From Chitinophagaceae bacterium (GTDB lineage Bacteria > Bacteroidota > Bacteroidia > Chitinophagales > Chitinophagaceae): a stretch of 64,000 nt of DNA. The notes under the pieces were generated by a model. The model was not told the DNA's origin. It did not search any database and saw only the letters and a list, made by a program, of their open reading frames with translations. Position 1 is the first letter of the stretch; each line of letters begins with the position of its first letter. Below, piece by piece: positions 39,624 to 58,753 of the stretch. The stretch lies in assembly GCA_003168265.1 (NCBI GenBank), contig PMSV01000023.1, positions 508,001 to 572,000 of the forward strand, given 5' to 3'. Made by a program: the position numbers and the translations under genes.

Positions 39624-40787
39624 ATGAATGTTTTTATTACCGGATCCACAGGATTTTTGGGCGGGGAATTGCTGGTGAGCCTGTCTAAGAGAACCGATAT
39701 AGATAGGATCTACTGTTTTATCCGGCCTGGAAACGATACTTGCGCACTTGACAGATTGAAAAAAGTGTTTTATATCCACAATGACTTTTTTGATGAATCC
39801 AGGATTTTTCCCATTGCTGGTAACCTTTTTGATCCCCATCTTACGGAGTCCCTAAAGGCCAATAAAATATTGAACGACACGGATGTCATTATCCATAGTG
39901 CCGCTAACACTTCTTTTTCGAGGATTTACGATGACATGCTGGAACAAGTGAATATTGCTGGTCTGGAGAAGCTCTTGATTTGGGCAAAGCATTTACCGGA
40001 ACTGAAGACTTTTGTTTATATCGGCACGGCGACGATTTGCGGAAGTAATATCCGTGCCCGGGTGGTTCATGAAGAGGAATCTCCGAATGCGAAGGCTAGT
40101 CACCTGGTGCGTTATACCTATACAAAGATGCAGGGCGAATTGCTGGTGGACCGTCATTTGCCTGCAGAAAAGGTTTTAATCGCGAGGCCTTCGATCATCA
40201 TGGGAGATAGCAGGCCAATCATTCCCCGCTCGCCTGTGATTCTCTGGGCAGTGGCTACGATCAATCAATTGCGTCTTATTCCAGTGAATGAAAAAGCGAT
40301 GCTGGATATGATTCCTGTGAATTATGCCGCAGATTCGATTGTTGAACTTTTAATGGCAGAGAGAAAGCATAAGGTATACCATATTTCTTCGGGAGTGAGT
40401 GGTGCCACTTCAGCACAAAAACTTTCGGTTTCGCTGGCAGCCCATTTTTCGGACCTTCCCACTTTCCGTTTTATCGATAAATCCTTTCTGAAGGATATTA
40501 AATTATGGGCTAAGAACCGGCTGAAACCGGAGAACCCCCTTTTTGATTTTCGCCTTTACCTGGATTACTGGAATTCCTGTTTTACGGATCCCGGTGCCGT
40601 GAGGATATTACTTGCCGGACTTGAGCCTTACCTGGAATTCATGGAGCTGGGGCAGGCTTTTGATAACGGGCGATTGCTAGAAGATGCGCCGGCAGTGAAA
40701 CAATCTATCCCGGCGGAAATATTTATTAAGAGTTGCATGCCCTTTATCGGAAAGATCAATTTGCTTGAGGGAGCATTGGATCCTTGA
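39624..40787 (+). CDS. Stand-alone thioester-reductase/fatty-acyl-reductase-like SDR
   Basis: The 387-residue protein has the nucleotide loop GSTGFLGG (residues 7-14), a conserved T135 in VYIGTATICG, and Y164-x-x-x-K168 in YTYTK. The N-terminal layout (FIRPGND, then IAGNLFDP and HSAANTSF) is typical of NAD_binding_4/thioester-reductase domains, which release carrier-bound acids as aldehydes or alcohols. It stands at the left border of the hybrid NRPS/PKS cluster and might act in trans on the product, though the cluster also has a TE. Alternatively it is an independent acyl reductase. It starts 6 nt after the SMR gene. Confidence 0.8.
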   Translation: MNVFITGSTGFLGGELLVSLSKRTDIDRIYCFIRPGNDTCALDRLKKVFYIHNDFFDESRIFPIAGNLFDPHLTESLKANKILNDTDVIIHSAANTSFSRIYDDMLEQVNIAGLEKLLIWAKHLPELKTFVYIGTATICGSNIRARVVHEEESPNAKASHLVRYTYTKMQGELLVDRHLPAEKVLIARPSIIMGDSRPIIPRSPVILWAVATINQLRLIPVNEKAMLDMIPVNYAADSIVELLMAERKHKVYHISSGVSGATSAQKLSVSLAAHFSDLPTFRFIDKSFLKDIKLWAKNRLKPENPLFDFRLYLDYWNSCFTDPGAVRILLAGLEPYLEFMELGQAFDNGRLLEDAPAVKQSIPAEIFIKSCMPFIGKINLLEGALDP

Positions 40788-40894
40788 CAGTAGAGTTGGT
40801 CCCTTTGGAATGGGGTCCTCCTTTTGGCCGGATTGGACAATTTGTCTATTTTTCATTCTAGTTTACTCGAGACCGGATTTATAAATTTCTTGCC

Positions 40895-42157
40895 ATGGAA
40901 AATGTTTCTCGCCCTGCATCAACTGATAAAAAATACCTTGTTCCGTTGATCCTGGTTACTTCCCTTTTTTTTCTTTGGGGCTTTGCTTATGGGCTGCTGG
41001 ATGTCCTAAACAAACATTTCCAGATGACTTTGAAGGTGACGCCGGAGCGCTCGACGCTTTTGCAGGCGGCCTATTTCGGGGCTTATTTCCTGATGGCCTA
41101 TCCGGCGGGACTTTTTATGAATCGTTTTGGATATAAGAAAGGCATTATCGGTGGGCTTTTGTTCTATGCCCTGGGAGCCTTTCTTTTTTACCCTGCTGCG
41201 GAGAAGGCTTCTTTTGAATTTTTCCTGATTGCCCTTTTTATACTGGCTTCAGGACTGGCCTGCCTGGAAACGGCGGCCAATCCTTATATAACGGTCCTGG
41301 GCGAACCTCGTACTTCGGAGCACAGGTTGAATCTTTCCCAATGTTTTAACGGAGTGGGCGCTTTTCTTGGACCCTGGCTGGCTTCCGAGGTTTTCTTCGG
41401 TGGCAAGGAGCAGGGAGGCAACCTGCAAAGCGTTCAGGTGGTTTATATCGTGATTGGTTCAATGGTCCTTGTAGTAGCGGGTCTTTTTTTCAGGACTCCA
41501 CTGCCGGAGATTCGGGAGAGCGAGATCGTTTCGTCTGCAGATTTGGATGTGAAGCCGCTGATGCATCACCGAAATTTTACAGGCGGAGTGGTGGCTCAAT
41601 TTTTTTATGTAGCGGCCCAGGTGGGGGTTGCGGCCCTTTTTGTGAACTATTGCACGGAGTCGGGCAATCGCATTTCGAATTCAGATGCGGCAAGGCTTCT
41701 TTCAGTCAGCCTGGTCCTTTTTACAGTGGGGCGTTTTGTAGGAACTGCTTTAATGAGAAAGATTTCTCCTCATAAATTGCTCAGCTCCTATGCTTACATC
41801 AATATCATTCTTTGTGTTCTCGTGATGTGGAACTGGGGCTGGTTCTCCATTGGAGCTCTGATGGTGGTTTTCTTTTTTGAGAGCATTATGTTTCCTACCA
41901 TCTTCGCTCTGGGCGTTAAGGACCTGGGACATCATACGAAAAGAGCTTCTTCTTTTATCATCATGGCGATCGTTGGCGGCGCAGTGGCTCCAAAGATCAT
42001 GGGAATGCTGATCTCGGCTCGTTATTCTACCGCTTTCTCATATATTGTACCGCTGATCTGTTTTGTGGTTGTGGCCTGGTACGGCTGGTCAGGTTTCCGC
42101 GTAAAGGGTGGCAGTGATTTGGCAGGTGGTAGCCTAAAGATCGGTGGCGTGCATTAG
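40895..42157 (+). CDS. MFS transporter of the FucP (L-fucose:H+ symporter) type
   Basis: The 420-residue protein has about 12 helices, with the FucP-type hallmark FFLWGFAYGLLDVLNKHFQ in helix 1 and GLACLETAANPYITVLG in helix 4, where FucP places substrate- and proton-coupling residues. FucP-like carriers import sugars with a proton. In a cluster this may import a sugar, or the gene may be unrelated. It is followed by a 77-nt gap before a polytopic protein. Confidence 0.88.
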   Translation: MENVSRPASTDKKYLVPLILVTSLFFLWGFAYGLLDVLNKHFQMTLKVTPERSTLLQAAYFGAYFLMAYPAGLFMNRFGYKKGIIGGLLFYALGAFLFYPAAEKASFEFFLIALFILASGLACLETAANPYITVLGEPRTSEHRLNLSQCFNGVGAFLGPWLASEVFFGGKEQGGNLQSVQVVYIVIGSMVLVVAGLFFRTPLPEIRESEIVSSADLDVKPLMHHRNFTGGVVAQFFYVAAQVGVAALFVNYCTESGNRISNSDAARLLSVSLVLFTVGRFVGTALMRKISPHKLLSSYAYINIILCVLVMWNWGWFSIGALMVVFFFESIMFPTIFALGVKDLGHHTKRASSFIIMAIVGGAVAPKIMGMLISARYSTAFSYIVPLICFVVVAWYGWSGFRVKGGSDLAGGSLKIGGVH

Positions 42158-42234
42158 CAAGTTTTCTTATTTCAAATCGGGATATACAACTTTCCGCCAA
42201 GGGCTGACGTTGTAGTGCAGTCAGAATCAATTTA

Positions 42235-43905
42235 ATGGAAGGTTTTCAACCAAATTTAAGGTTTTCAGGGCCGGGTCGTTCCAGAAGCCGTTCCGGGCGA
42301 TGGATAGTCCTACTGGTCTGTTTTGTGATGCTGGGCATGGCTTTTTTCCAGTGTTACAGAACGACAAAGAACCTGGATTGGGCAGCCGATTCTGATTTTG
42401 ACCGGGATATCAGTTTTGTTCAGGGCAGCCTTTCGGGCCACTATGGACATGATCCTAGTTATAAGGGGGAATGGCTTTGGTATAATCCTCTTCTTTTTTC
42501 TGTCGAGACCGTAATTTCAAAATGGACTTCACTGCCTGCGCATGTCGTGGCGACCCGCGCTGGCGTTTTCCTGAATGTATTGGGCGGGATTTTCTTCTTA
42601 ATTACAGTTTCTGAATTATTTGGACTGGAGATCGGCCTCGGTGCTCTTCTTTGTTTTCTTTTTCTCGTTTCTGGTAATATTCCGGGATGGGGGGCAGCTA
42701 CCTTGAGCCCCTGGCTTTACCCGGTTTGCTTTTCACAGTTTCTTTTTTATACTAATATTCTACTTTGTTATCTGGCTTTCAGCACGGAGAGGCTGGGCTG
42801 GTTTGCCTGCCTGGGCCTTAGTCTTGGGATTAGTTTTTTGAGTCATACTGCGCCGACGATCCTGATCATTCTTATCCTAATTACGGTGCAGTTGCCGAGG
42901 ATCTGGAAGGCAGCATTTAATGATAGAGGAGCGGATCGGGTGAAGTTATATCTTGTTCAGGGACTTTCTTGTTTCCTGTTTTTTGTTTTGGCTGCCATGC
43001 CCCTTCTTTATTATCTGGTGGGCAAGTACCATCTGCATATGGTCAACCGGGCAACTTTTGAATATACCGAAGGTATTTTTATCGTGAGCCATTTTAAGGC
43101 GATGCTGAAAGCGAATTTTTCTGTCGCGCTTGTGGTGGCAGCACTAGGACTTATCTGGTTTCATCTGAATTCGGAGAAAGGCTTGATCCGCAAGATCATC
43201 TATGGCTGGCTGGGCTGGACGCTGTTGATGTATTTTTATTCGACAGCCGTTTCGGTGTTTGATAATAAATGGCATATACATCTCCCGGGCACCGTACCTT
43301 CCTTTCATTATTTCTTTTACCTGAAGGCACTGGAGTCGGTGTTTTTCGGAATGGGGATCTACGGAATTTTTAATTGGGTCTGGATAAATCTTTTCAGAAG
43401 GAAGCTGCGTTCTTATAATAATTATCGTTTGATTGCCTATAGTTTGGTAGTATTGGCATGTGCAGGGCTTTATTTTCCGGTTTATAGCAAGCGGGCTGAT
43501 TTTACTATGATGAGGGACCAGGCCCTTGCCAAAGCGGGGCAACTGAATAAAATGGAAGTATATAATTTTCTCATGAATCATAGCTTAGAGGAGGATGTAG
43601 TGCTTTGCGATAAGGATCCTTCGCTGTTCCCCGTGATGACGACGGGTCGGAAAATGGTCTCGACCGCATTCACTTTTTCGAATCCCTTTGTGGATTTTGA
43701 CCGAAGGGAGAATGACAGGGACAGTATGCTGAATTATGCGAGGTCGGGGACTCCAGTGGCAGCGAGCGGACTATTTGGATTTTACGGAGTGAAGTTGGTG
43801 TTGCTAGAAAATAATGATGCGGGTAAGCCGTTTATTGAATCAAACCTTTGTAAGAAATTGGTTTTCAGGAATAAGTCTTATTCTATCTATCAATGGTCTA
43901 ATTGA
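42235..43905 (+). CDS. Polytopic membrane protein, possibly GT-C-type glycosyltransferase
   Basis: The 556-residue protein has an N-terminal cytoplasmic stretch, then about eleven hydrophobic segments. The first extracytoplasmic loop contains acidic clusters (DWAADSDFDRD), as in GT-C glycosyltransferases, followed by WLWYNPLLFS. The C-terminal 150 residues form a soluble extracytoplasmic region. I do not recognise a specific family. The flippase follows, so the two could act on a lipid-linked sugar. It ends 11 nt before a conserved leader with a short upstream ORF. Confidence 0.65.
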   Translation: MEGFQPNLRFSGPGRSRSRSGRWIVLLVCFVMLGMAFFQCYRTTKNLDWAADSDFDRDISFVQGSLSGHYGHDPSYKGEWLWYNPLLFSVETVISKWTSLPAHVVATRAGVFLNVLGGIFFLITVSELFGLEIGLGALLCFLFLVSGNIPGWGAATLSPWLYPVCFSQFLFYTNILLCYLAFSTERLGWFACLGLSLGISFLSHTAPTILIILILITVQLPRIWKAAFNDRGADRVKLYLVQGLSCFLFFVLAAMPLLYYLVGKYHLHMVNRATFEYTEGIFIVSHFKAMLKANFSVALVVAALGLIWFHLNSEKGLIRKIIYGWLGWTLLMYFYSTAVSVFDNKWHIHLPGTVPSFHYFFYLKALESVFFGMGIYGIFNWVWINLFRRKLRSYNNYRLIAYSLVVLACAGLYFPVYSKRADFTMMRDQALAKAGQLNKMEVYNFLMNHSLEEDVVLCDKDPSLFPVMTTGRKMVSTAFTFSNPFVDFDRRENDRDSMLNYARSGTPVAASGLFGFYGVKLVLLENNDAGKPFIESNLCKKLVFRNKSYSIYQWSN

Positions 43906-43916
43906 TTAGCGAATAC

Positions 43917-43961
43917 ATGAAACCGAGCATGAGCAATTTCGCTCACACAAGGGAAAAATAA
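43917..43961 (+). CDS. Candidate 14-residue leader peptide (upstream ORF) MKPSMSNFAHTREK
   Basis: The ORF runs from ATG 43917 to TAA 43959-43961, 40 nt before the flippase ATG and 11 nt after the preceding gene's stop. It shares MKPSMS and a similar length with the upstream ORF before the polyprenyl synthase. It could act in translational coupling or attenuation. Expression is not shown. Confidence 0.4.
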   Translation: MKPSMSNFAHTREK

Positions 43962-44001
43962 GCGAGCTTTCTGGCAAACGGGAAAAACTGAAGATATTCA
44001 G
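43917..44001 (+). promoter_or_regulatory. Conserved leader element, copy B (upstream of flippase)
   Basis: This 85-nt stretch ends at the flippase start codon and aligns with the leader at 16072-16158 (minus). The first 18 nt are identical and the last 30 nt nearly so. In copy B, TGAGC/GCTCA can form a small hairpin over the ORF's fifth to tenth codons; copy A lacks this pairing, so the hairpin is not conserved. The stretch contains the 14-codon upstream ORF at 43917-43961. Confidence 0.75.
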
Positions 44002-45351
44002 ATGAATTCTACTAATAAACGTTACTGGCTAAAGTCCGGGACCCTAAACCTGCTCCTGAATGTGCAGAACCTGATCTTTGGTTTTGGCAGTTTTTTCCTG
44101 CTGATAAGGATTCTTAACAAGCATGATTTCGGTGTCTGGGCGCTTTTTGTTGCGACGACAACGATTTTTGAGACGGCAAGAAATGGATTGCTGCAAAACG
44201 CATTGATCCGGTTTTTGTCAGCTTCGAAGAAGGAGCATCATGCCCCTATTCTTTCGGCTTCTTTTTTTATCAGCGGGATTTTGACAGTTTTTTGCATTGC
44301 ATTAAATTTTTTACTTGCGGGTTATCTTTCGAAGATTTGGCATAGCGAGGTCCTTGTCCGGATGTTCTATGTCTATAATATTGCTTATATCTTCCAGGGG
44401 ATACTTTTCCAGTTCCAATGGATCGAGCAAGCTCATCTGAGTTATTACGGGACTGTTGTTTCGAATATGGTCCGCCAGGGACTGTTCTTTAGCTTTGTGC
44501 TTTTTTCCTTTATATTTTTTCCGGGGATTTCGCTCTTGACACTTGTCTATGTGCAGGTTGGTTGCCTTTTTTTTTCCATGACCGTGGAGTATTTTTTTGC
44601 GAGAAGGCATTTGTCGTTTTCCCTGGATGTCCAAAAAAAATGGGTGCTGGAATTGTTTCATTTCGGAAAATATGCTTTCGGAACCTATATCAGTGCGATC
44701 CTTTCCAATACGATCAATCAGATGATGCTTGGCGCGATGGTTTCGGCGGATGCGGCTGGGGTCTATAATGTGGCGCTGCGGGTTACCAATATCGCTGATA
44801 TTCCGACCAACGCGATCAGTACAATCGTTTTTCCGCAGAGTGCCCGGCGATTTGCGGAGCATGGCCAGGGTGCCGGGAAATATATGTTTGAAAAATCGGT
44901 GGGCACAATACTCGCACTGCTGATTCCGGTGATGGCCCTTCTTTTTATTTTTCCGCATATCGTCGTTAATCTTATCGCAGGCCATAAATACTCAGATACC
45001 ATACCCTTAATCAGGATCATTGTTTTGACCTGCCTGATCAATCCTTTTCAAAGACTTTTCGGAACGATCCTGGATTCGATGGGCAAACCGAGGGTGAATT
45101 TCATCGTGATCACGCTTTTTGCACTGGTGAACCTGACACTCACTTATTTTTTTATCGGTTGGTTTAATATTATCGGTGCAGTTTATGCAACTTTAATAGC
45201 GGACCTGGCCTTTCTCCTTGTCAGTCAGATTATCCTATGGAGACTGCTGGGAGTGAATTTTTTCTATCCTTTTATATATGCAGTGAGATTCTACCCGGAA
45301 TTTTATGAGCAGTACGTAAAACCTGTTTACAGGAAGCTGAAAAGGGCCTGA
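44002..45351 (+). CDS. Oligosaccharide/lipid flippase of the MOP (Wzx-like) superfamily
   Basis: The 449-residue protein has twelve to fourteen helices, with the polysaccharide-biosynthesis flippase pattern at the start (LNLLLNVQNLIFGFGSFFLL) and the central YAFGTYISAIL and MMLGAMVSADAAGVYNVA segments. Wzx-like proteins move lipid-linked oligosaccharides or related amphiphiles across the inner membrane. Its place directly before the oxygenases and megasynthases suggests export of a lipid-like or glycosylated product, which is inference. Its leader is duplicated at 16072-16158. Confidence 0.87.
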   Translation: MNSTNKRYWLKSGTLNLLLNVQNLIFGFGSFFLLIRILNKHDFGVWALFVATTTIFETARNGLLQNALIRFLSASKKEHHAPILSASFFISGILTVFCIALNFLLAGYLSKIWHSEVLVRMFYVYNIAYIFQGILFQFQWIEQAHLSYYGTVVSNMVRQGLFFSFVLFSFIFFPGISLLTLVYVQVGCLFFSMTVEYFFARRHLSFSLDVQKKWVLELFHFGKYAFGTYISAILSNTINQMMLGAMVSADAAGVYNVALRVTNIADIPTNAISTIVFPQSARRFAEHGQGAGKYMFEKSVGTILALLIPVMALLFIFPHIVVNLIAGHKYSDTIPLIRIIVLTCLINPFQRLFGTILDSMGKPRVNFIVITLFALVNLTLTYFFIGWFNIIGAVYATLIADLAFLLVSQIILWRLLGVNFFYPFIYAVRFYPEFYEQYVKPVYRKLKRA

Positions 45352-45390
45352 AAAGGAGAATTGGCCTAAAAAAAGGAGATCAGCTTGAAT

Positions 45391-46287
45391 ATGCAAAAGA
45401 TTGTTTATACATTGGAAATGCTAAACCCCGTTAAAATGGAAGTGCAAAAAGTTGAGAACCTTTCCTATAAAGATTTCATGAACGAGTTCTATAAGCCCGG
45501 GTTGCCGGTGGTCTTTAAGGATGCATCGAAGGCCTGGAAAGCGAGAGATCTGTTTACTCCTGATTATTTCAGAAAAAATTACAGCGATAGAAAAACCGTC
45601 GTGAATGAAAAGGAATACACGATGGGTGAATTACTGGACATGATCGAGAACAGTTCAGAGTCCAACCCTGCTCCTTATCCGTGTAAGTTCGATATTCCTT
45701 CCAAAATTCCGGAATTGCTTCCGCTTATCAGGCCACTCGGCATGAACTATGCCGTTCCAAACTGGTTTCAGAGCAAGATGTTTCCTTCGGTTGTAATTGG
45801 AAACCAGACGGAATTATTTCTAGGTAGCCCGGGGGGAAAATTTCCTGTCGCCCATATCGACTATTTTCATACCAATGCCTGGGTGACCCAGCTTTATGGA
45901 GAAAAGAATTTCATTGTCTATCCAAGAGGACAGGATGAATTCATGTACCCCAAACCAAACAATCAATGGGAATCAGAAGTCAATATTTTCAATCCGGATT
46001 ATGAGAAGCATCCCAAATACCGGAATGCGACTCCGATCACCGTGACGATCAAACAGGGAGAGACGATCTTCGTGCCCTGGGGTATCTGGCATAGCGCTGA
46101 ATCTCTGACACCCAGCATTTCCGTGATATTTGACCAGATCAACGGCAGCAATTATGATGATTATGTGAATGATGTCTGGAATTATAAGAAAGACGGCAAC
46201 CGGATGAAGGCCCTTGCGGTTCTTGCCTATTGCCGTATGGCGAAATATTTCTGTAAGGTTGGGGATTTGTTCGGAAGCGTTCAATAA
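45391..46287 (+). CDS. Cupin_8/JmjC-type Fe(II)/2-oxoglutarate-dependent oxygenase-like protein (copy 1)
   Basis: The roughly 298-residue protein has a JmjC-like cupin core with the iron triad His-x-Asp in VAHIDYFHTNAW (H155, D157) and a distal His in WGIWHSAESL (H234), all present. The family includes hydroxylases of peptides, lipids and carrier-bound amino acids. It lies directly before the synthetase genes, so hydroxylation of a carrier-bound or released residue is plausible. The start is uncertain: AAGGAG at 45373-45378 supports ATG 45391 or the TTG at 45385, while the paralog's N-terminus would fit a start at 45436. The next gene is a paralog, 13 nt away. Confidence 0.82.
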   Translation: MQKIVYTLEMLNPVKMEVQKVENLSYKDFMNEFYKPGLPVVFKDASKAWKARDLFTPDYFRKNYSDRKTVVNEKEYTMGELLDMIENSSESNPAPYPCKFDIPSKIPELLPLIRPLGMNYAVPNWFQSKMFPSVVIGNQTELFLGSPGGKFPVAHIDYFHTNAWVTQLYGEKNFIVYPRGQDEFMYPKPNNQWESEVNIFNPDYEKHPKYRNATPITVTIKQGETIFVPWGIWHSAESLTPSISVIFDQINGSNYDDYVNDVWNYKKDGNRMKALAVLAYCRMAKYFCKVGDLFGSVQ

Positions 46288-46300
46288 TTAAATAATTTTT

Positions 46301-47140
46301 ATGCAGGTAGAAAGAGTCGATAATATCAGCTATGAGGAATTTATGGAGAGATTCTATAAACCGGGGATTCCCTGTGTTTTTAAGAGCGCTTCAAAAGTCT
46401 GGAAGGCAAATGGCCTTTTCAGTCCCAATTATTTCCGCGAAAATTTCGGGGGTAAGACCATCGTAAAGGAAGGAAGAACCTATACGATGAAGGAAGTGAT
46501 GGATCTGGTAGAGAACAGCACGGAGGAAAAACCTGCTCCCTATCCTTTTATATTTGATATTCCAACGGTTTTACCTGAAGTCATTCCACTGTTGAGCCCG
46601 CTGAACCTGGGCTATGCGAAACCGAACTGGCTGGAGAGCAAATGGTTTCAAAGAGGTTATTGGGGCAGCGCCACGGAGGTATTCGTAGGGGGACCCGGAG
46701 GAAGGTTTCCCTATGTTCACCTTGACTATTATCACCTCAATGCATGGATCAACCAACTTTACGGGGAGAAACGCTTTACTGTTTTCCCTAAAGGACAGGA
46801 GAAATTCCTTTACACGAGGCCGGATGATCCCTGGAGATCGGATATCAATATTTTTGAACCGGATTATGAAAAATTTCCTCTTTATAAGAACGCCACGCCA
46901 ATCCATTTTACTGTAGGAGCGGGAGAGACCCTGTTTATTCCTTTCGGGACCTGGCATACTGCCTATTCCCTGGGGCCCACGATCTCAGTCGCTTTCGATC
47001 AGCTAAACGCAAAGAATTTCAGCGCTTTTATGAAAGACGTATGGGCTTTTAAAATCCAGGAAGGAAGGGCCAGGGCTTTGGCTCTTTATGGTTATGCCTG
47101 GCTGGCAGGACAGAGCTGCAAACTGAGCCATAATTCATAA
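46301..47140 (+). CDS. Cupin_8/JmjC-type Fe(II)/2-oxoglutarate-dependent oxygenase-like protein (copy 2)
   Basis: The 279-residue paralog of the previous gene is roughly half identical by eye. The iron triad is complete: H140 and D142 in VHLDYYHLNAW, and H219 in FGTWHTAYSL. The shared blocks NAW-x-x-QLYGEK and the YENATPI/YKNATPI region mark a recent tandem duplication that kept activity in both. Distinct substrates or positions of hydroxylation are possible. It ends 269 nt before the hybrid synthetase. Confidence 0.82.
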   Translation: MQVERVDNISYEEFMERFYKPGIPCVFKSASKVWKANGLFSPNYFRENFGGKTIVKEGRTYTMKEVMDLVENSTEEKPAPYPFIFDIPTVLPEVIPLLSPLNLGYAKPNWLESKWFQRGYWGSATEVFVGGPGGRFPYVHLDYYHLNAWINQLYGEKRFTVFPKGQEKFLYTRPDDPWRSDINIFEPDYEKFPLYKNATPIHFTVGAGETLFIPFGTWHTAYSLGPTISVAFDQLNAKNFSAFMKDVWAFKIQEGRARALALYGYAWLAGQSCKLSHNS

Positions 47141-47344
47141 TTTTTTTTATTTAGCCGGATGCAGGTTTAATGATATTTTCATTTTTTTAATAGATTGAGT
47201 ATTAGCCATTCTGTAGATTTTAGGAGGGCGTTTAATCATATCCCTTTTATTAATAAGAATTTGCGCCCTTAGAATGTTAGAAAAATCTTGATCTTTTTGT
47301 CGGTTAAAATCGTTTATATACAATAATAAGCCTGCTTTTTGGGT

Positions 47345-50400: not shown

Positions 50401-53400
50401 CCTAATCCGAATATTGATTTCGCGAACAGCCCTTTTTTCGTGAATGACCGATTGAGGGATTGGGAGATGGACGGCAAGGCAGAAAGAAGAATTGCGGGTA
50501 TAAGCTCTTTCGGCGTGGGCGGGACAAATGTGCATTTGGTCGTGGAAGAGTTTGAGGTCGGATTAATTAATAGTGTTCCGTCCAGGAAACCTGCATTTTT
50601 ATTTAGATGGAGCGCGAAATCAGAATACAGTTTGAAGGAGATGGCGGGGAGGCTGGCGGATCATTTGGAAAATAATGAGGGTTTTAACCTGGCCGATATT
50701 GCTTATACCCTTCAAACTGGGAGGGAATCCTTTCCCTTTAGGAGGTTTGTGGTGGCTGCAGAAAGGGGGGAATTAATCCGGAAATTGAGGGCGGCATTGG
50801 TTTCCCCTTCTGAATCGGGGCAATTGAAGGAAATCGGGGACGAGATCGTTTTTTCTTTCCCGGGACAGGGATCGCAATACCTGAATATGGGCAAGCAGGT
50901 CTATCAGAATGAGCCGCTTTTCAGGGCGGCTGTGGATGAATGCGCGCTTTTGTTGGAGCCGGTGATGGGAGAAGATATCAGAGAGCGGATTTTTGCAATT
51001 GGTGAACAAGCTGCGGAAGAGATTGGGAATACCTATTATACCCAGCCGGCTTTATTTGTGATCGAATATGCGATAGCGAGACTTTGGATGAGCTGGGGGA
51101 TCAGGCCTATGGCTTTTATAGGTCATAGCATCGGGGAATTCGTGGCGGCTCATTTATCCGGGATATTCAGCCTGGAAGACGGGCTGAAATTGATCGCGAC
51201 CAGAGGCAGGTTGATGTCCGAACAACCGAGAGGGAGCATGTTGGCAGTGAGGGCGACTTTCGAAGAGATTGAGAAGTTCCTGAGCGGCGATCTATCGCTT
51301 GCGGTGGTGAATAGCCCGGGTTCCTGTGTTGTGGCTGGACCAACCAGTTCAGTCGAACTGCTTTCTCAGAAACTGAATGGGCTGAAGATTTCAAACCGGG
51401 TACTTGCGACGAGCCATGCTTTCCATTCCAAAATGATGGAACCGATCGTTGAGCCTTTTGAAGAGGTCGTCGCGGGCATTAAACTAAATATTCCGAGAAT
51501 TCCGATCGTTTCTACAGCAACGGGTGAATGGCTTAAGGATGAAGAAGCGATGAGCCCGGCCTATTGGGCCGGACATCTGAGGTCACCGGTATTGTTTGCC
51601 GCTGCGGTCAAAACTTTGGGTCAGGGTGGTAAGAAGATCGTGATAGAGTCGGGGCCGAAAAATGTAACAGCTTCCCTTATACGTCAACAGTCCGGTAATT
51701 ACTTAGCGGTGATTGCCAGCTTAGACATACAGGAGGGAATGAGCGAATATGATTCCATTCTGAGAGCCATGGGCCAACTCTGGTTACTGGGGATCGATAT
51801 AGATTGGGATAGGTATTATGAGAATGAGAGGAGGATTAGGGTGAACCTTCCAGGCTATGTTTTCGATAAGACCCTCTATTGGGTGGATCCTCCTGTATCA
51901 GGAGGCGTAATGCCGACTGTGACCGTTGAAAATAATTCAATTCAAACCAGTCAAATGAGAAGGGACGCCCTTATTGAAAAAATTAAAGGGGTGCTGGAGA
52001 ATGCTTCCGGCATCGATATGCAGGGAGCGAGTGAGGATATGAATTTTATTGAGATGGGTTTTGATTCTCTCCTGATCACCCAGGTGGCGCTGAACCTGAA
52101 AAAAGAATTCAGGGCTCCGGTGAGTTTCAGGCAACTGAACGAAGAATACAGTAACCTGAACAGACTTGCAGGTTATCTGGAACAGGTCTTGCCGAAGGAG
52201 GAAGATCCAAGACCGGTTTCCATTAAACAGCAACAGGCTATGACAGGAAATAATTCAACTGTGATTGGATTGATCTCTCAACAGATGCAATTACTTGCTC
52301 AACAGGTTGCTCTTTTGCAAGGCGAGGAACAGGCTTTGCCGGTAAAGAAGGCCGGGAACGCCGGTCTTAGTGCCGAGGAAATCGCGGAGTTGAAGAAACC
52401 TTTTGGGGCGACGGCAAAGATTGAACGACAGGATTTGCAACTTAGTGGGAAGCAGGAGGAGTTCATAGGGAATTTGATTCGGGAGTACGCCGCCAAGACC
52501 GCGGAGAGTAAGAAGTACAACCAGCAGAACAGGGCGACGATGGCGGACCCAAGGGTTGTAACGGGCTTCAGGCCAGGGACAAAGGAGATCGTTTATTCGA
52601 TCGTGGTTAATCGCTCCAAAGGGAGCCGCCTCTGGGACATCGACGGCAATGAGTACATCGACGCCCTGAATGGATTCGGGTCGAATTTTTATGGATACCA
52701 GCCGGATTTTATAACCAGGGCCATCCAAGAGCAGATCGAAAAGGGTTATGAGATCGGCCCCCAGCATGAACTTTCCGGACCGGTATGTAAGTTGATCTGT
52801 GAATTTACGGGGCAGGACAGGGCGGCGCTTTGCAATACGGGATCGGAAGCGGTGCTTGGTGCGATGCGGATTGCGCGGACGGTGACGGGCAGATCGACGA
52901 TCGTTGCCTTTTCGGGTTCCTATCACGGGATCTTGGACGAAGTGATCGTGAGGGGTACAAAAAATTTAAAATCATTTCCTGCGGCTCCGGGCATCACAGC
53001 GGAGGCAGTACAAAATATGCTGATCCTGGAATATGGGACAGAGGAGTCCCTCAGAATCATTAGTGAAAGAGCTGATGAAATCGCGGCAGTGCTGGTGGAA
53101 CCTGTTCAAAGCAGGAGACCGGAATTTCAGCCGGTCGAATTTTTGAAAGAGCTCAGGGAGATCACATTGAAATCAGGAACGGCACTGATATTTGACGAAG
53201 TGATCACGGGTTTCAGGATGCACCCGGCGGGCGCACAGGGTCTCTTTGGAATCAGGGCAGATATCGGCGCTTACGGAAAAGTGGTCGGCGCCGGGATATC
53301 CATTGGGGTTATTGCCGGCAAGAGCCTGTTCATGGATGCACTGGACGGAGGTTTCTGGCAATTTGGAGATGGTTCGGTCCCGGAATCGGGCGTCACTTAT

Positions 53401-53964
53401 TTTGCGGGGACTTTTGTGAGGCATCCGCTTGCCCTGGCGGCTTCAAAAGCTTCTCTGGATTATATGAAATCGAAGGGGCCTGCTCTGCAGGAGGGGGTCA
53501 ATGCGAAGGGGAAAAGGCTGGCGGACCGGTTAAATGGTTTTTGTGAGCGCCATGGACTACCCATTTTTTTGACTCAATTCGGGTCTTTGTGGAAGATAAA
53601 ATTTAAGGAAGAGATTCCTTTCAGCGAGTTGATTTTTGCACTGATGCGCCTGAAGGGGATTCATATATTGGATGGGTTTCCCTGTTTTATGACAGAGGCG
53701 CATAGCCCGGAAGAAGTAGATCGGATCGCGCAGTGTTTTGAGGATAGCGTAAGTGAGATGACGGAGGCTGGTTTTTTTGTAAAAAATGACTCAAAAAACG
53801 GATTGAACGGACATGCACTAACTTCGAAGAATGGGAAACATGTTAAAGATTTGATGGATGATCCTCCTATTGCGGGTGCAAGACTGGGTAAGGACCGGGA
53901 TGGCAATCCCGCCTGGTTTGTTGCGGATCCGAAAAGGCCGGGGAAATTTTTGCAGGTTAAATGA
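47410..53964 (+). CDS. Hybrid NRPS-PKS with aminotransferase: A-PCP-KS-AT-ACP-AMT
   Basis: This 2184-residue enzyme has the following domains. A (1-515): YTSGSTGKPKG, NQYGPTE, RTGDLARKE and the terminal catalytic lysine in SGKID; the code read by alignment is D-V-Q-F-M-A-Q-V-V, near the proline type. PCP (525-600): GGNSLL. KS (620-1045): C792, H928, H967. AT (1140-1440): S1240 in GHSIGE and a HAFH motif (H1336, H1339), predicting malonyl-CoA. ACP (1515-1590): S1553 in GFDSLL. GSA-type class III aminotransferase (1710-2120): K1957. No KR, DH or C domain is present. It would build a beta-amino acyl chain from the primed amino acid plus malonate. The C-terminal tail ends in a GARLG-to-GKFLQV linker-like motif. 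The Asn-rich stretch at about 258-272 in the A domain is unusual. The stop is a TGA in frame with the next gene. Confidence 0.93.
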   Translation: MSQNDYKKSLSLLDLFADSVMRFAQGEAVWCNGKSISYAKLDELSDEICQRVLEVSESSQIFGISTSRCIEEIAGLIGILKAGKAYLPLDIGLPRERVAQIIKDSGIDGCIVNDQEEEGLFKSLGIRVLGRERKDKSAGNKKSVPGKLAYVLYTSGSTGKPKGVLMGEAAMINLIQWQQRHSSAGAGTRTLQFAPLSFDVSFQEIFSTLTTGGTLVLIDDDTRLDPQRLLGFLREQKVSRIFVPFVALQYLTEAAAASDNAPDNNVLNNNAPEGLTEIMTAGEQLKITSQVRKFFDRLPKCKLYNQYGPTECHVVSESVLSGNTGLWPDLPSIGKAIDNTELFILDENLKQVSEGETGELCIAGKCLAEGYLNQPSLTREKFIEWEDPKKQRIRIYRTGDLARKEANGEVEFLGRKDDQVKIRGYRIEPGEIEVLLNRQEGILQAVVIAREDIPGQKRLVAYLVPSTEKKDIKKIRKAIEKELPDYMMPSAFIWMDQLPKTGSGKIDKKSLPKPEIKRPELGTAYKAPVTEKEKTIAKVWAELLQIDRVGVKDNFFELGGNSLLALRTVTELRNAKGLELPVTKIYQFPSVEGIADFLEGKTEIRQKEKKNSRNSGEGNNREIAVIGMAGRFPGAENIQAFWKMLVEGREGIRFFTKEELSPFIEEEIKKDPDYVAARGILEGTGEFDAAFFHINPKMAALMDPQQRLFLQTAWEALESAGVVARRYEGLIGVYAGTGNNSYYINNVLPNKELTQQVGPFNVMAANEKDYVASRTAYELNLKGPAVSVYSACSTSLLAIAQAAESLREGHCDIALAGGVAVTSPIHSGHIFQEGAMLSRDGHCRSFDEKASGTVFSDGVGIVVLKRLEDARRDEDLIYAVIKGAGVNNDGGGKGSFMTPSAEGQAAAIRMAQEDGAVDPATVSYIETHGTATPLGDPIEIEGLSIAFGQQVRKQYCAIGSVKSNIGHLTAAAGVAGFIKTVLSLYTKKIPASIHFQKPNPNIDFANSPFFVNDRLRDWEMDGKAERRIAGISSFGVGGTNVHLVVEEFEVGLINSVPSRKPAFLFRWSAKSEYSLKEMAGRLADHLENNEGFNLADIAYTLQTGRESFPFRRFVVAAERGELIRKLRAALVSPSESGQLKEIGDEIVFSFPGQGSQYLNMGKQVYQNEPLFRAAVDECALLLEPVMGEDIRERIFAIGEQAAEEIGNTYYTQPALFVIEYAIARLWMSWGIRPMAFIGHSIGEFVAAHLSGIFSLEDGLKLIATRGRLMSEQPRGSMLAVRATFEEIEKFLSGDLSLAVVNSPGSCVVAGPTSSVELLSQKLNGLKISNRVLATSHAFHSKMMEPIVEPFEEVVAGIKLNIPRIPIVSTATGEWLKDEEAMSPAYWAGHLRSPVLFAAAVKTLGQGGKKIVIESGPKNVTASLIRQQSGNYLAVIASLDIQEGMSEYDSILRAMGQLWLLGIDIDWDRYYENERRIRVNLPGYVFDKTLYWVDPPVSGGVMPTVTVENNSIQTSQMRRDALIEKIKGVLENASGIDMQGASEDMNFIEMGFDSLLITQVALNLKKEFRAPVSFRQLNEEYSNLNRLAGYLEQVLPKEEDPRPVSIKQQQAMTGNNSTVIGLISQQMQLLAQQVALLQGEEQALPVKKAGNAGLSAEEIAELKKPFGATAKIERQDLQLSGKQEEFIGNLIREYAAKTAESKKYNQQNRATMADPRVVTGFRPGTKEIVYSIVVNRSKGSRLWDIDGNEYIDALNGFGSNFYGYQPDFITRAIQEQIEKGYEIGPQHELSGPVCKLICEFTGQDRAALCNTGSEAVLGAMRIARTVTGRSTIVAFSGSYHGILDEVIVRGTKNLKSFPAAPGITAEAVQNMLILEYGTEESLRIISERADEIAAVLVEPVQSRRPEFQPVEFLKELREITLKSGTALIFDEVITGFRMHPAGAQGLFGIRADIGAYGKVVGAGISIGVIAGKSLFMDALDGGFWQFGDGSVPESGVTYFAGTFVRHPLALAASKASLDYMKSKGPALQEGVNAKGKRLADRLNGFCERHGLPIFLTQFGSLWKIKFKEEIPFSELIFALMRLKGIHILDGFPCFMTEAHSPEEVDRIAQCFEDSVSEMTEAGFFVKNDSKNGLNGHALTSKNGKHVKDLMDDPPIAGARLGKDRDGNPAWFVADPKRPGKFLQVK

Positions 53965-53973
53965 ATTTTTATT

Positions 53974-56900
53974 TTGAGACAGGAACATGGACCATATGAA
54001 TTAACTGAAATCGATTTCGATCCTTTTGAAGACCGGGTGATCCAGCGGGTGGCTCCTGCCATTGAGCCGCAGATGGAGATCTGGGTTTCCTGCATGATGG
54101 GAGGCGATGACGCGAACCGTTCTTATAACGAGTCTGTGATGCTTTACCTGAACGGGAGGGTCGATACTGTGAAATTGGAACTGGCTCTGGGAGCTCTTGT
54201 GGAGAGACATGAGGCTTTGAGGTCCTGTTTTAGCGGAGATGGCAGACAGGTCATCATATATGAGGGGATTGATTTTGCAATCCGGCGAATGGACCTGGGG
54301 GAGCTGGATAAGCAAGGGCAGGTAGCGGCCCTGGATGATTTTGCCAAAGAGGATGCCAATAAGGCCTTTGATCTTTTTAATGGCCCGCTGTTCCGTTTTG
54401 CATTGATTAAATTATCGGACAAGCGATGGGTTCTGAAGATCACGGCCCATCATATTGTCTGCGATGGATGGTCGCTGGGTATCCTGCTCCAGGACTTGGG
54501 GAAATTATATAGCGGCAAGCCTGCGGTTTTGCCGGATGCCAGATGTTTTAGCCAGTACGCGATGGAGCAGTGGGATTATTCGGGAACAGAAGAATTTGCA
54601 AGTACTGTCGATTATTGGATAGATCAATACAAGGAAATTGTGCCTGTGCTGAACCTGCCGACTGATTTTGAGCGGCCGACAGTGAGAACCTATAAGAGTC
54701 ACCGGGATGATTTTGCGATCAATGGAGATCTTTCCGCCCGGGTGAAGGCCATGGGCGCGAAGGCGGGTTGCAGTTTTGTGACCACACTGCTTTCGGCTTT
54801 CGAAATTTTCCTCTTTAGATTGACTGGACAGCCTGAACTGGTTTTAGGATTGCCGGCGGCGGGGCAATCTGTTACGGGTAACGAGGCCCTGGTAGGGCAT
54901 TGCGTGAACCTATTGCCGCTTCGCTCTAAGGTGAAGGGCGAGGAACCATTTTTGGATTATCTGAAAGCAAGGAAGAAACAGCTTTTCGACGATTACGAAC
55001 ATCAGCGATTCACCTTTGGTACTTTGCTTAAAAAATTGAATATTCAAAGGGATCCTTCCAGAGTACCCCTTGTGCCCGTGGTTTTCAATATCGACATGGG
55101 CCTGGATAACGGGGTTTCTTTTGAGGGGATTGAACACAGACTTGGTTATACGCCGAGAGAATACGAAAATTTTGAATTGTTCCTGAACGCGAGCGGCTCC
55201 GAAAAGCTGCTGGTTCTGGAATGGTCCTATAATACCCAACTTTTCAAGGCTTCTACGATCGCGCGCATGATGGATGAATTCACGAGCCTGCTGGAATTTA
55301 CTTCGAGTCATCCTGATACCAGGATCCAGGATATACCGAAAGGAAGGGAAGATGAGCTATGGAAGAAACTCAAGGATTGGAATGATACCCGCGTTGAATA
55401 TCCCAGGGACCTGACCCTAGTGGATTTATTTGAAAAAAGCGTAGAGCTGCACCGCGAAAAGATCGCATTAAGGTTCGGAAAGAAGGCCTATACCTATGAG
55501 GCTCTGAATGAAGTAGCCAACCGGTTTGCGGCCATGTTGAAGGAGGAGGGTATCGGATGCGGCAAGCTAGTCGGAATCTCCGTTGACCGCAGTGCGGAGA
55601 TGGTGGTAGTGATGCTTGGGATTGCGAAGGCAGGTGCTGCTTATTTGCCTCTGGACCCCCTTTTCCCACAAAAAAGAATTGAGTTCATGCTGGCTGACTC
55701 AGCGGCGAATCTGCTGATCAGTTCAAAAAAATACAAGGGAAGATTCGGACCGTTGGTCAGAGAGATCCTGGTGGAAGAGGTCTGGCAGAAACTGGATAGA
55801 TGGAAGGGTGAGAATGGAAGTGTTTGCGGTAGTAGGGACCTTGCCTACCTGCTTTATACTTCGGGTTCGACAGGCAATCCCAAAGGAGTGCAGATTGAGC
55901 AGCATAGCCTTGTGAATTTTTTATTGAGCATGAAGAATAAACCGGGTATAAAGGCTTCGGACCGGTTGCTCGCAGTGTCGACGATCTCATTTGATATCGC
56001 AGGATTGGAAATCTACCTGCCACTGATCAGCGGTGCAGAACTCGTGCTCGCAGATTCAGAGTCTGTGAAGGATGGCCGAATGCTGCTGGACTTGATCGGA
56101 GAAAGGGAGATCAGCATTATGCAGGCGACTCCTTCGACTTGGCGGATGCTGATCGAAGCGGGCTGGGAAAAAAAGCTTGCTTTGAAAGTGCTCTGCGGAG
56201 GCGAGGCATTGCCGAGAGACCTGGCAGAAAATTTGATAATTCGTTCCGAAAGTGTTTGGAATATGTATGGACCAACGGAAACGACTATCTGGTCAGCAGT
56301 CAGCGAAGTGGCCGCAGATGAACCGGTGATCTCGATCGGCAGACCGATCGACAATACCCAGATCCTTATTCTGGATGAACATGGAAAGCCGGTTCCTGAA
56401 GGTTCGGTGGGGGAGATCTATATAGGCGGAGAAGGTGTGGCGCGCGGCTACCTGAACCGTCAGGACCTGAACGGAGAGAAATTTCTGGAGGAAATGTTCC
56501 CGGGACCTATAACAGGAAGGTTTTACCGGACCGGGGACCTTGGGAAATGGATGGAGGGCGGATTATTGCAATGCCTGGGAAGGATTGATCACCAGGTGAA
56601 AATCCATGGATACCGTATCGAACTTGAAGAAATAGAACAGGCTTTGCTGAAACAGGAGGGGATCAGGCAGGCGGTTGTAACAGCAAGCCAGGACAGATTG
56701 AGGGCATTTATTGTTTCAGACGGGGATAATTCACCTTCAATCGTCGGGCGCTGGAAACAGTGCTTATCTGAATCCCTACCCGCTTATATGGTTCCTGCTG
56801 ATTTTACCCCGCTGGATCAAATTCCTTTGACACCGAATGGAAAGATCGACAGGGAATCACTCATGAGATTGGCTGGCCCCGCGGGTGGAACAGTTAAGGA

Positions 56901-58017
56901 AAGGATCGAACCGAGAACGGATACGGAAAAATTAATCGCCGGGATATGGAAATCTGTACTGGGAATCCAGACAATCGGCGTGAAGGATGATTTTTTTGAA
57001 ATGGGAGGTCATTCCCTGATCGCCGTGCAGGCCATGACCCAGCTTGAAAAACAAACAGGCAGGAGATTACCCCTGGCCTCCCTTCTCGAAGCTCCTACGA
57101 TTGAAAAACTTTCGCGTCTTCTTCTATTAGAGGAAAGCGCTGTACAGGATGATCATTCGCTTGTGACCATTAAAGCTAACGGAAAGAAAATACCTCTTTA
57201 TATCGTTCATGGCTTTGGTATGAATGTGCTTTTGTTCAATTATATCGCCAGAAATATGGATGCGGATCAGCCTGTCTTTGCATTGCAGGCAAAGGGGCTG
57301 CATAGGGGTGCAGCACAGCTTCCTGACAATATGGAAGGGATCGCAACGGAATATCTTTCCGAGGTTCTCAAACGAGATCCGAACGGACCGTATGCCCTGG
57401 CCGGTTATTCTTTTGGGGGCATCATCGCTTTTGAAATGGCCACGCAATTAAGGGCCATGGGTAAAGAAGTAAAAATGCTGGCGATGTTCGATACCTATGC
57501 CGATAATTCTACTTATTTCGATCCTTATCTGCAAAATATCAAAAAGAAGGTCGGCAGGCAATTTCCCAAATTATTATTCATTGTCCGCTCGCTTTTCATC
57601 CAACCCAAAAAGACCATCTTGTATCAACGAGACTTTGTGAAAAATAAAGTCAGGAGCGTATTGGGCAGAGCCGATATTTATGAAGATGAAGGAGCAAGTC
57701 TGGATCCCACCCTGGCTCAGAAATACGATCACGCCTATATGCATTACAAGATGAGCCCTTATAATGGAACCATCGATCTTTTCAGGGTTAAAAACAGGCT
57801 CTATTATTTAGATGATCTTGTTTACCTGGGATGGAAACCCTTTGCCCGGAGAGGAGTCAAGGTGTACGAGATCGGCGGAGATCACAAAACCTTTCTTTAT
57901 CCCCCTCACGATAAGGCTTTTGGAAAAATATTGCAGGAAGTCCTGGATCAACATGCCGCCGAACCTGACAACACGAATTACTCAGACGGAGGAATTCCCT
58001 TTCTCAAAGTCGTTTGA
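53974..58017 (+). CDS. Non-ribosomal peptide synthetase C-A-PCP-TE
   Basis: The 1347-residue synthetase has a condensation domain (about 1-460; H159-H160 to D164 in HHIVCDG), an adenylation domain (about 470-960; YTSGSTGNPKG near 628) whose code reads D-I-L-Q-L-G-M-I-W, close to the glycine type, a PCP (S1014 in GGHSLI), and a type I thioesterase (about 1065-1345; S1146 in GYSFGG, D1173, H1304 in GDHKTF). It condenses the upstream beta-amino acyl unit with glycine and releases it. The start is TTG, three codons after the upstream TGA and in the same frame. The first ATG would cut the C domain's first motif, so TTG or a non-standard start must be used. Confidence 0.9.
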   Translation: MRQEHGPYELTEIDFDPFEDRVIQRVAPAIEPQMEIWVSCMMGGDDANRSYNESVMLYLNGRVDTVKLELALGALVERHEALRSCFSGDGRQVIIYEGIDFAIRRMDLGELDKQGQVAALDDFAKEDANKAFDLFNGPLFRFALIKLSDKRWVLKITAHHIVCDGWSLGILLQDLGKLYSGKPAVLPDARCFSQYAMEQWDYSGTEEFASTVDYWIDQYKEIVPVLNLPTDFERPTVRTYKSHRDDFAINGDLSARVKAMGAKAGCSFVTTLLSAFEIFLFRLTGQPELVLGLPAAGQSVTGNEALVGHCVNLLPLRSKVKGEEPFLDYLKARKKQLFDDYEHQRFTFGTLLKKLNIQRDPSRVPLVPVVFNIDMGLDNGVSFEGIEHRLGYTPREYENFELFLNASGSEKLLVLEWSYNTQLFKASTIARMMDEFTSLLEFTSSHPDTRIQDIPKGREDELWKKLKDWNDTRVEYPRDLTLVDLFEKSVELHREKIALRFGKKAYTYEALNEVANRFAAMLKEEGIGCGKLVGISVDRSAEMVVVMLGIAKAGAAYLPLDPLFPQKRIEFMLADSAANLLISSKKYKGRFGPLVREILVEEVWQKLDRWKGENGSVCGSRDLAYLLYTSGSTGNPKGVQIEQHSLVNFLLSMKNKPGIKASDRLLAVSTISFDIAGLEIYLPLISGAELVLADSESVKDGRMLLDLIGEREISIMQATPSTWRMLIEAGWEKKLALKVLCGGEALPRDLAENLIIRSESVWNMYGPTETTIWSAVSEVAADEPVISIGRPIDNTQILILDEHGKPVPEGSVGEIYIGGEGVARGYLNRQDLNGEKFLEEMFPGPITGRFYRTGDLGKWMEGGLLQCLGRIDHQVKIHGYRIELEEIEQALLKQEGIRQAVVTASQDRLRAFIVSDGDNSPSIVGRWKQCLSESLPAYMVPADFTPLDQIPLTPNGKIDRESLMRLAGPAGGTVKERIEPRTDTEKLIAGIWKSVLGIQTIGVKDDFFEMGGHSLIAVQAMTQLEKQTGRRLPLASLLEAPTIEKLSRLLLLEESAVQDDHSLVTIKANGKKIPLYIVHGFGMNVLLFNYIARNMDADQPVFALQAKGLHRGAAQLPDNMEGIATEYLSEVLKRDPNGPYALAGYSFGGIIAFEMATQLRAMGKEVKMLAMFDTYADNSTYFDPYLQNIKKKVGRQFPKLLFIVRSLFIQPKKTILYQRDFVKNKVRSVLGRADIYEDEGASLDPTLAQKYDHAYMHYKMSPYNGTIDLFRVKNRLYYLDDLVYLGWKPFARRGVKVYEIGGDHKTFLYPPHDKAFGKILQEVLDQHAAEPDNTNYSDGGIPFLKVV

Positions 58018-58018
58018 T

Positions 58019-58753
58019 ATGTCCTGGCTATCTATTCAAGAAATCCCCCTGGTCCAATGGACAAAAGAAGAAAGCTTTCCTTTTAAGACCATTCCGGTTT
58101 GTGATTGCTGGAAAATTTCCATTCCGGGGCTTGAGGGGCTTGTAGTGAATAAAGAACCTATATTAGTTAGTGATGAGTTGGAGAGGGCGCAGCGGTATTT
58201 TCAGGAGAAAGACAGATTAAGATTCAAATTATGCAGGATATCTCTTAGGATCCTGCTCGCGAAATATCTGCAAACTGACCCGGCGTGCCTGGTGTTCAGG
58301 GAGGGCCCTAATAAAAAACCTTTTTTCAATGATGAGTTGCATTTCAATGTAAGCCATAGCGAAGAGATGATCCTGATCACGGTTTCTTCAAAACCAGTCG
58401 GGGTGGATGTTGAAAAAATCAGATTCCGTTTTCCCCTTGAAGAATTGATCAGGGAAATCGCCAGTCCGGAAGAATTGGAAATCTACAGAGAGAGCTCCGA
58501 TACTTTGGATTTTTTTTATTATCTCTGGACACGCAAAGAATCCCTGCTTAAGGCAAGTTCCAAAGGCATTGAAGATTCCCTGAATCGATTGAATGTGCTT
58601 GACGGGAGAAGGACGCTCCCTGCTGAACTTATTGGCTCTGATCAGGATTGGTTTATAGGGAGCTTTAAAATGAATGGGGATTATCGGGGCTGCATCGCCA
58701 GTTCCTATCCGCTCGAAGATTGCCGTTTCCTGGATGCTTCGGGTTTTCTTTAG
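58019..58753 (+). CDS. Sfp-type 4'-phosphopantetheinyl transferase
   Basis: The 244-residue protein from ATG 58019 starts 1 nt after the synthetase stop, so it is translationally coupled to the thioesterase gene. The magnesium motif GVDVEKI (D130, E132) and W170-x-x-K173-E174 in WTRKESLLKA are complete, and HFNVSHSEE is the typical substrate-binding strand. It attaches phosphopantetheine to the PCP and ACP domains of the two synthetases. An upstream extension of the open frame overlaps the synthetase and is not supported. Confidence 0.93.
   Translation: MSWLSIQEIPLVQWTKEESFPFKTIPVCDCWKISIPGLEGLVVNKEPILVSDELERAQRYFQEKDRLRFKLCRISLRILLAKYLQTDPACLVFREGPNKKPFFNDELHFNVSHSEEMILITVSSKPVGVDVEKIRFRFPLEELIREIASPEELEIYRESSDTLDFFYYLWTRKESLLKASSKGIEDSLNRLNVLDGRRTLPAELIGSDQDWFIGSFKMNGDYRGCIASSYPLEDCRFLDASGFL

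Follow-up and report, generated by a model that had tools for sequence, protein, structure and literature searches.

Which compound does a hybrid non-ribosomal peptide synthetase/polyketide synthase (NRPS/PKS) line in the genome of a Chitinophagaceae bacterium assemble, and is this compound set free or joined to the cell surface? The line lies within a window of 64,000 nucleotides (assembly GCA_003168265.1, contig PMSV01000023.1, positions 508,001 to 572,000; host genome size 4.30 Mb), to which the coordinates below refer unless a locus or genome is named. Its two proteins are read here as making a proline-derived beta-amino-acyl-glycine that is likely joined to a surface glycan or assembled jointly with one, and for this reading as a whole the chances are about even. 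A first-pass annotation of the region 39624-58753 had proposed a beta-amino-acyl dipeptide; its chemistry stands with small corrections, whereas its view of the layout as uncommon does not; it took in a short-chain dehydrogenase/reductase (SDR) gene that is probably foreign to the cluster, and the glycan context had escaped it.

Domain organization of the two megasynthases

The PKS protein (47410..53964, plus strand, 2184 aa) is encoded by a single unbroken open reading frame (ORF), in which Pfam delineates an adenylation domain A1 with a proline-like code (47452..48954), a peptidyl carrier protein PCP1 (49012..49203; GGNSL), a ketosynthase (KS, 49270..50559; ACSTSL, ETHGTATPLGD and KSNIGH), an acyltransferase (AT, 50848..51672; GHSIGE and HAFH), an acyl carrier protein (ACP, 52012..52224, the second PP-binding stretch; GFDSL, residue 1550) and a class III pyridoxal phosphate (PLP)-dependent aminotransferase of the MycA type (AMT, 52597..53670; Aminotran_3, 160 bits). 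The NRPS protein (53974..58017, plus strand, 1347 aa, TTG start), again a single unbroken ORF, comprises a condensation domain (C, 54043..55335; 287.6 bits; HHIVCDG) with tyrocidine synthetase 3 (PDB code 2jgp) as best PDB match, a second adenylation domain A2 with a glycine code (55429..56844), PCP2 (56932..57123; GGHSL) and a type I thioesterase (TE, 57193..57933; PF00975, 78.6 bits; GYSFGG). The best PDB match of the latter is the TE of an NRPS (7crn, 78.6 bits).

All active-site motifs searched for are intact, namely the cysteine and both histidines of the KS, the motifs of the AT, the serines of the three carrier domains, the AMT lysine and the motifs of the C domain and the TE. Pfam and motifs together bear out the order A-PCP-KS-AT-ACP-AMT followed by C-A-PCP-TE that had been annotated before. 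HAFH is a marker of malonyl-type AT domains, and its presence alongside GHSIGE agrees with the malonyl assignment made there. No Pfam match to a ketoreductase, dehydratase or enoylreductase domain is found at E<=0.001 anywhere in the 2184-residue PKS protein.

Two further frames resemble parts of the line. A stand-alone acyltransferase (32607-33548; Acyl_transf_1, 142.7 bits), located about 14 kb upstream and matched by the AT region of the PKS, is probably the housekeeping FabD, and on the window's own contig another NRPS-like open frame (G000:C8:38402-40168) gives an A-PCP match at 34% identity.

Aminotransferase and predicted assembly sequence

The AMT aligns over about 460 residues with the aminotransferase of mycosubtilin synthase (PDB codes 6kfu and 6kfm; about 398 bits, E about 1e-118), and the PLP-lysine region is conserved between it and the AMT of MycA. 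The next-best group, the glutamate-semialdehyde aminomutases, scores 177 bits at most. As in a MycA-type module, a class III AMT with its PLP lysine stands in line behind KS-AT-ACP; the fatty-acyl ligase-ACP start is absent from the window line, and its place is taken by an amino-acid-type A domain (DVQFMAQVVK). The conversion of a ketone to an amine, as suggested in the first-pass annotation, is supported by this homology.

In the predicted assembly sequence A1 would load an amino acid, most likely L-proline, onto PCP1, and KS-AT-ACP would add one malonate with retention of the beta-ketone. Transamination by the in-line AMT would then turn this ketone into the amine of a 3-amino-3-(pyrrolidin-2-yl)propanoyl (beta,gamma-diamino) thioester, which C-A2-PCP2 would join to glycine before release by the TE. 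Hydroxylation of the product, or of the target of the product, is probably carried out by one or both of the cupin oxygenases encoded upstream (see below). This sequence predicts 3-amino-3-(pyrrolidin-2-yl)propanoyl-glycine as the core product, to which the two cupins may add hydroxyl groups; substrates, reactions and product are all inferred from homology. In linear form the product would have the formula C9H17N3O3 ([M+H]+ 216.134) and in cyclised form an [M+H]+ of 198.124, each hydroxylation adding 15.995.

Distribution and conservation of the synthase family

Within the same family the PKS is matched at E<=1e-100 in 33/294 genomes, in many cases within single domains only; ten genomes including that of the window match near full length in one piece and five more in two. 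The near-full-length relatives in the nine other genomes are 50-66% identical, and owing to this recurrence the PKS is neither a chance arrangement nor a misassembly. Within the genus the PKS is matched in 16/33 genomes, 12 of which (the window counted) show long matches; in the 11 besides the window the identity is 58-66%.

A genome scan with an AMT alignment yielded at least 581 relatives, of which the best 80 were kept, with taxonomy taken from record titles. All 80 belong to Bacteroidota and include Pedobacter, Mucilaginibacter, Parapedobacter, Hymenobacter, Spirosoma, Larkinella, Puia and other genera. Three strains of P. cryoconitis (M2T3, S3M1 and Xaverov 94) are among the carriers, and for different strains of this species genetic tools are reported (PMC12181424). 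A-PCP-KS-AT-ACP-AMT is found in this order at 79 of the 80 loci and C-A-PCP-TE at 77, the latter being missing from a 3.1-kb contig (L079), from a locus that runs into its contig end (L117) and from L123, where none is seen. The two-protein layout, formerly called uncommon, thus recurs in several Bacteroidota families. With the motif patterns defined here HAFH is present in 75, the AMT lysine motif in 79 and the KS cysteine motif in 77 of the 80 related PKS ORFs, while the TE motif is detected in 68 of the 77 NRPS ORFs following the PKS and missing from nine. In a sample of the phylum 16/392 genomes contain an AMT match at E<=1e-150, which in 14 cases reaches E<=1e-250, and in one Bacteroidota family 46/201 genomes do so at E<=1e-200. 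These sequences are best read as an uncharacterised, modular MycA-like family that is spread across several Bacteroidota families and would make beta-amino-acyl dipeptides.

In a shortened relative, L035 (G237:C1 221000-240900), both the starter A domain and the AMT are lacking; its PCP-KS-AT-ACP is succeeded by a C-A-PCP-TE whose A domain reads DILQLGMIWK.

Substrate codes and exchange of adenylation domains

The canonical proline code is DVQFIAHVVK, and the alignment-derived A1 code DVQFMAQVVK deviates from it at two positions. This speaks against proline and for a different reading of A1, according to which another residue, e.g. pipecolate or another cyclic amino acid, is activated and a different beta,gamma-diamino acid is coupled to glycine. 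According to the available text of PMC12283262, Pro-like codes are also used by azetidine carboxylate domains, and several non-proteinogenic residues are indistinguishable from their parent residues by code, which is in line with such a reading. The same source stresses Val236 and Gln239 for proline, both being present in 59/71 proline domains (PMC12283262), and both are found in A1. Moreover, the A1 code is the commonest one among the 82 starter A domains of the related loci (36, with the close variant DVQFIAQVVK in 6 more), and no Pfam match in the cluster points to the synthesis of an unusual amino acid. The PDB ranking of A1, with linear gramicidin synthetase entries first and tyrocidine synthase 2 (372 bits) next, does not settle the substrate. 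Taken together, proline is the probable substrate of A1, and another residue appears unlikely. For A2 the alignment-derived code DILQLGMIWK is identical to that common to four glycine domains which carry a MOX domain in the available text of PMC12283262; in A2 of the window Pfam matches no inserted domain. Glycine is considered the very probable substrate of A2, and the codes of both domains agree with the Pro-like and Gly-like labels given earlier.

The remaining starter codes comprise Asp/Asn-like (D.TK) and Thr-like (DFWNIGMVHK) ones as well as some whose type is unknown, and 57/84 of the other A domains begin with DILQ. A large insert is present in the second A domain in 20/81 rows; in L025 it matches Methyltransf_12 above the cutoff, which points to N-methylglycine. 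On a quick tree of KS and AMT (83 rows) the starter class changes at least 14 times, with a possible minimum of 4 and a shuffled mean of 33.6, and the class of the second A domain 13 times, the classes being those defined in this analysis, where "Gly-like" takes in codes of unknown substrate such as DILQLCMIYK. The A types therefore cluster by descent yet change repeatedly at both positions. The Pro-like line of the window pairs on a starred branch with L067, which has an Asn-like starter. Judged from sequence comparison, the KS-AT-ACP-AMT core is kept while both A domains change type.

At one locus (L028/L029, G119:C1 1475000-1509900) two related lines are arranged in tandem. The first is an A-PCP-KS-AT-ACP-AMT plus C-A-PCP-TE line whose two A domains both have Thr-like codes; the second is Pro-like, lacks the aminotransferase and continues with a two-module NRPS. 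This pair would reveal what the AMT contributes.

Surface-glycan genes at the window and at related loci

In the window the line is preceded, on the same strand, by genes for a polytopic membrane protein (42235..43905) and for a Wzx-type polysaccharide flippase of the MOP superfamily (44002..45351; Polysacc_synt_3 81.4 bits, Polysacc_synt 75 bits). The polytopic protein is matched by neither Pfam nor NCBIfam. Its AlphaFold model, calculated from five sequences (mean pLDDT 68, pTM 0.67), gives 19 PDB matches at E<=0.001, all of which are entries containing an oligosaccharyltransferase (OST), PglB/archaeal OST, AftA or ArnT, with TM values of 0.36-0.47 by query and rmsd values of 11-18. A GT-C-fold glycosyltransferase is predicted on this basis. 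At the ten PKS loci of the genus with readable upstream sequence (the window counted; G303 and G300 are unreadable, and G242 is readable for only about 1.7 kb), a homologue of the polytopic protein adjoins the PKS in five and a Wzx-type flippase is present in seven, the six other flippases being 53-60% identical to that of the window.

Glycan genes are also frequent next to the related loci. From a pool of 350 flanking ORFs at 78 loci (up to two upstream and three downstream, megasynthases and 4'-phosphopantetheinyl transferases excluded) 140 were drawn randomly, and 139 were scanned with one long ORF left out. Of these, 31 match Glycos_transf_2 (GT2), versus at most one of 140 control ORFs, "at most" because only the 25 commonest families were tallied; the 140 controls were taken from 169 ORFs on 20 randomly placed 12-kb stretches in nine genomes of the family to which the window belongs. 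Further matches among the 139 are FkbM methyltransferase (5), Cupin_8 (4), OEP (4) and Polysacc_synt (3).

In G098, 12 genes on one strand encode OEP, a Wzc-like protein (AAA_31 match, Wzz just under its cutoff), GT2, Wzy_C, Wzx (Polysacc_synt), an unknown protein, GT11, GT1, PKS, NRPS and two further GT2 proteins. A 317-residue protein without Pfam match (L023:5792-6742), situated in this run between flippase and GT11, is a candidate for a linking enzyme. In Mucilaginibacter (L101) PKS, NRPS and the phosphopantetheinyl transferase are followed by a small ORF and then by genes for a bacterial sugar transferase, for OEP and for an AAA_31 protein. In Spirosoma (L085) GT2, OEP and a Wzc/GNVR-like protein, whose GNVR match is below the cutoff only, precede PKS and NRPS, and a Polysacc_synt gene is located downstream on the opposite strand. 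Of the glycan-type ORF clusters, six in number (GT2c, Branch, Wzc etc.; labels assigned by eye, some checked by Pfam), one or more are represented at 52/84 loci. The association thus recurs with differing gene sets in several lineages, some of them on the PKS strand.

In view of the many loci within or next to glycan operons, and of the flippase and predicted GT-C enzyme ahead of the window line, attachment of the dipeptide to a glycan, or its joint assembly with one, is considered likely. This link is the weakest part of the reading; it is drawn from gene context, and a product unrelated to glycans has roughly equal chances. A more specific proposal, put forward tentatively and with less than even confidence, is that lines with exchangeable A domains make cationic beta,gamma-diamino-acyl dipeptides as covalent substituents on lipid-linked glycan repeat units. 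Among the weaker PDB matches of the TE is that of Pks13 (46 bits), a TE which transfers an acyl chain to trehalose and serves only as a precedent.

Several observations weigh against a glycan-bound product. The TE, with its standard GYSFGG motif, resembles ordinary type I enzymes and could merely hydrolyse or cyclise its substrate, no gene for attaching a peptide to a sugar was identified, and none of the six glycan-type ORF clusters is present in the available flanking DNA of 32/84 loci. Pfam detects neither an initiating sugar transferase nor any glycosyltransferase among the ten proteins encoded at 39624-62219, where the GT-C fold is predicted from a model of moderate confidence, and no Wzy polymerase in the window cluster, where the polytopic 42235 protein matches no family; Wzy proteins are diverse in sequence. 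Furthermore, the flanking ORFs span several families while the control stems from one, and the related loci are non-independent.

With the TE, the adjacent transporter genes, the loci lacking glycan-type clusters and a weak MatE match of the flippase above the cutoff (28.9 bits), these data would also suit, in line with the first-pass annotation, a free, secreted beta-amino-acyl dipeptide that is either hydrolysed or cyclised to a lactam by the TE and exported by the flippase and a major facilitator superfamily (MFS) protein. The best scores of the flippase, however, go to polysaccharide-synthesis families, and the excess of GT2 genes beside the related loci and the one-strand run of G098 with Wzx and Wzy_C also speak against such a product, which is considered somewhat doubtful.

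A different explanation of the gene context is that the line is unrelated to glycans and that both merely share variable genomic islands in which surface-glycan genes and biosynthetic clusters gather. The patchy presence of the PKS (12/33 genomes in the genus) fits such islands. In one family a membrane GT2 gene that neighbors loci of Pedobacter and Mucilaginibacter also occurs in 68/155 genomes without PKS, and in 23/46 PKS genomes it is more than 20 kb away or on another contig; this gene is therefore not dedicated to the PKS, which counts against the glycan link as well. Conversely, it is present in all 46 PKS genomes, within 12 kb of the PKS in 21 and within 20 kb in 23 of them, a co-occurrence with a Fisher p of 4.5e-14 uncorrected for descent. 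In view of this and of the distinct glycan gene sets in several lineages, the island explanation appears unlikely.

If glycan attachment holds, lines that are usually tallied as orphan natural-product clusters would belong to the chemistry of the cell surface, and their products would escape screens of culture extracts. In the more specific form of that reading, capsules or O-antigens would be decorated nonribosomally, and an exchange of A domains would alter surface charge or antigen. Even if the product is free, one conserved KS-AT-ACP-AMT core with many starters is a natural set for studies of A-domain exchange, and the family is a source for making beta,gamma-diamino acids, with a defined mass to seek.

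Neighboring genes and limits of the cluster

Between the flippase and the PKS two genes encode Cupin_8/JmjC-like proteins, both putative Fe(II)/2-oxoglutarate hydroxylases on the plus strand. Cupin 1 (45385..46287; 89.2 bits; TTG start uncertain) carries the HxD...H motif as HID at 157 and WHS at 235, cupin 2 (46301..47140; 76.4 bits) as HLD at 140 and WHT at 218. A copy of cupin 2 is found at eight of the ten loci of the genus (window counted); the seven others are 69-76% identical, one being cut by a contig end. These are the two oxygenases noted in the first-pass annotation, and the transport genes noted there correspond to the flippase and to an MFS transporter (40895..42157, plus strand) assigned to FucP (NCBIfam fucP, 332.9 bits, over the cutoff). 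Membership of this transporter gene in the cluster is uncertain, as it sits between the SDR and the polytopic gene also in G282 and is not found at that place in G311. In G282 the position of the flippase is filled by a protein with a Sulfatase match (L022:7427-8929, 45.7 bits), a family with members resembling phosphoethanolamine transferases and LtaS.

Downstream, a 4'-phosphopantetheinyl transferase gene (PPTase, 58019..58753, plus strand; ACPS 52.4 bits; HetI 98 bits, below its cutoff of 370) forms part of an ORF that overlaps the 3' end of the NRPS gene. Its start is probably the ATG at 58019, directly after the NRPS stop at 58017, rather than 57812. A PPTase-type ORF cluster is present at 58/82 related loci and is the second ORF after the PKS in 57.

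As to the limits of the cluster, the pair of SMR (39303-39617) and SDR (39624-40787) genes is also found in G127 and G312, genomes of the same genus without a PKS match at E<=1e-100, so that the left edge is probably at 40895 or 42235. A reductive release by the SDR was likewise not adopted since its thioester-reductase score is below the family cutoff (109 versus 213 bits). Of the amidohydrolase genes at 59007-63537 the first is matched in 6/7 genomes of the genus, including G127, G312 and G035, which have no PKS match. SMR, SDR and the amidohydrolases are probably outside the cluster. Scans of the window returned no tRNA and no Rfam match.

Comparison with known systems

NRPS-PKS hybrids make up 12% and 17% of the Pedobacter clusters counted by antiSMASH in two studies; published analyses further state that similarity to any MIBiG entry is seen in only 23% of the clusters of Pedobacter, and that Bacteroidetes hybrid clusters differ from those of other phyla (PMC12181424, PMC10609062, PMC9248904). 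The synthase family of the window is probably among these Pedobacter/Bacteroidota hybrids, although the accessible parts of these papers single out neither the family nor its aminotransferase, product or glycan context, and no description of it was found in the open-access literature at the level of titles and beginnings of abstracts, subscription papers, preprints and MIBiG being outside this scope.

The window flippase and predicted GT-C enzyme, as well as OEP, Wzc-like protein, Wzy_C and Wzx of G098, resemble Wzx/Wzy surface polysaccharide clusters. Unlike these, the window cluster is without a Wzy protein or initiating transferase recognizable by Pfam, and to our knowledge Wzx/Wzy clusters normally contain no NRPS/PKS. 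With the FAAL hybrid synthetases of the puwainaphycin type the line shares a hybrid NRPS/PKS architecture for a beta-amino acyl unit, there a fatty acid; according to the available text those systems differ in their fatty-acyl starter, their lipopeptide product and their cyanobacterial host (PMC4219810).

The closest counterpart described here is MycA, mycosubtilin synthase subunit A, with which the line has the in-line class III PLP aminotransferase in common. In MycA this domain is likewise preceded by KS-AT-ACP and followed by a C domain, and the starter is a fatty acid that enters through an acyl ligase-ACP. In contrast, the window line starts with an amino-acid A-PCP, and only one residue follows before the TE; since the fatty acid is replaced by an amino acid, a beta,gamma-diamino acid is the predicted product.

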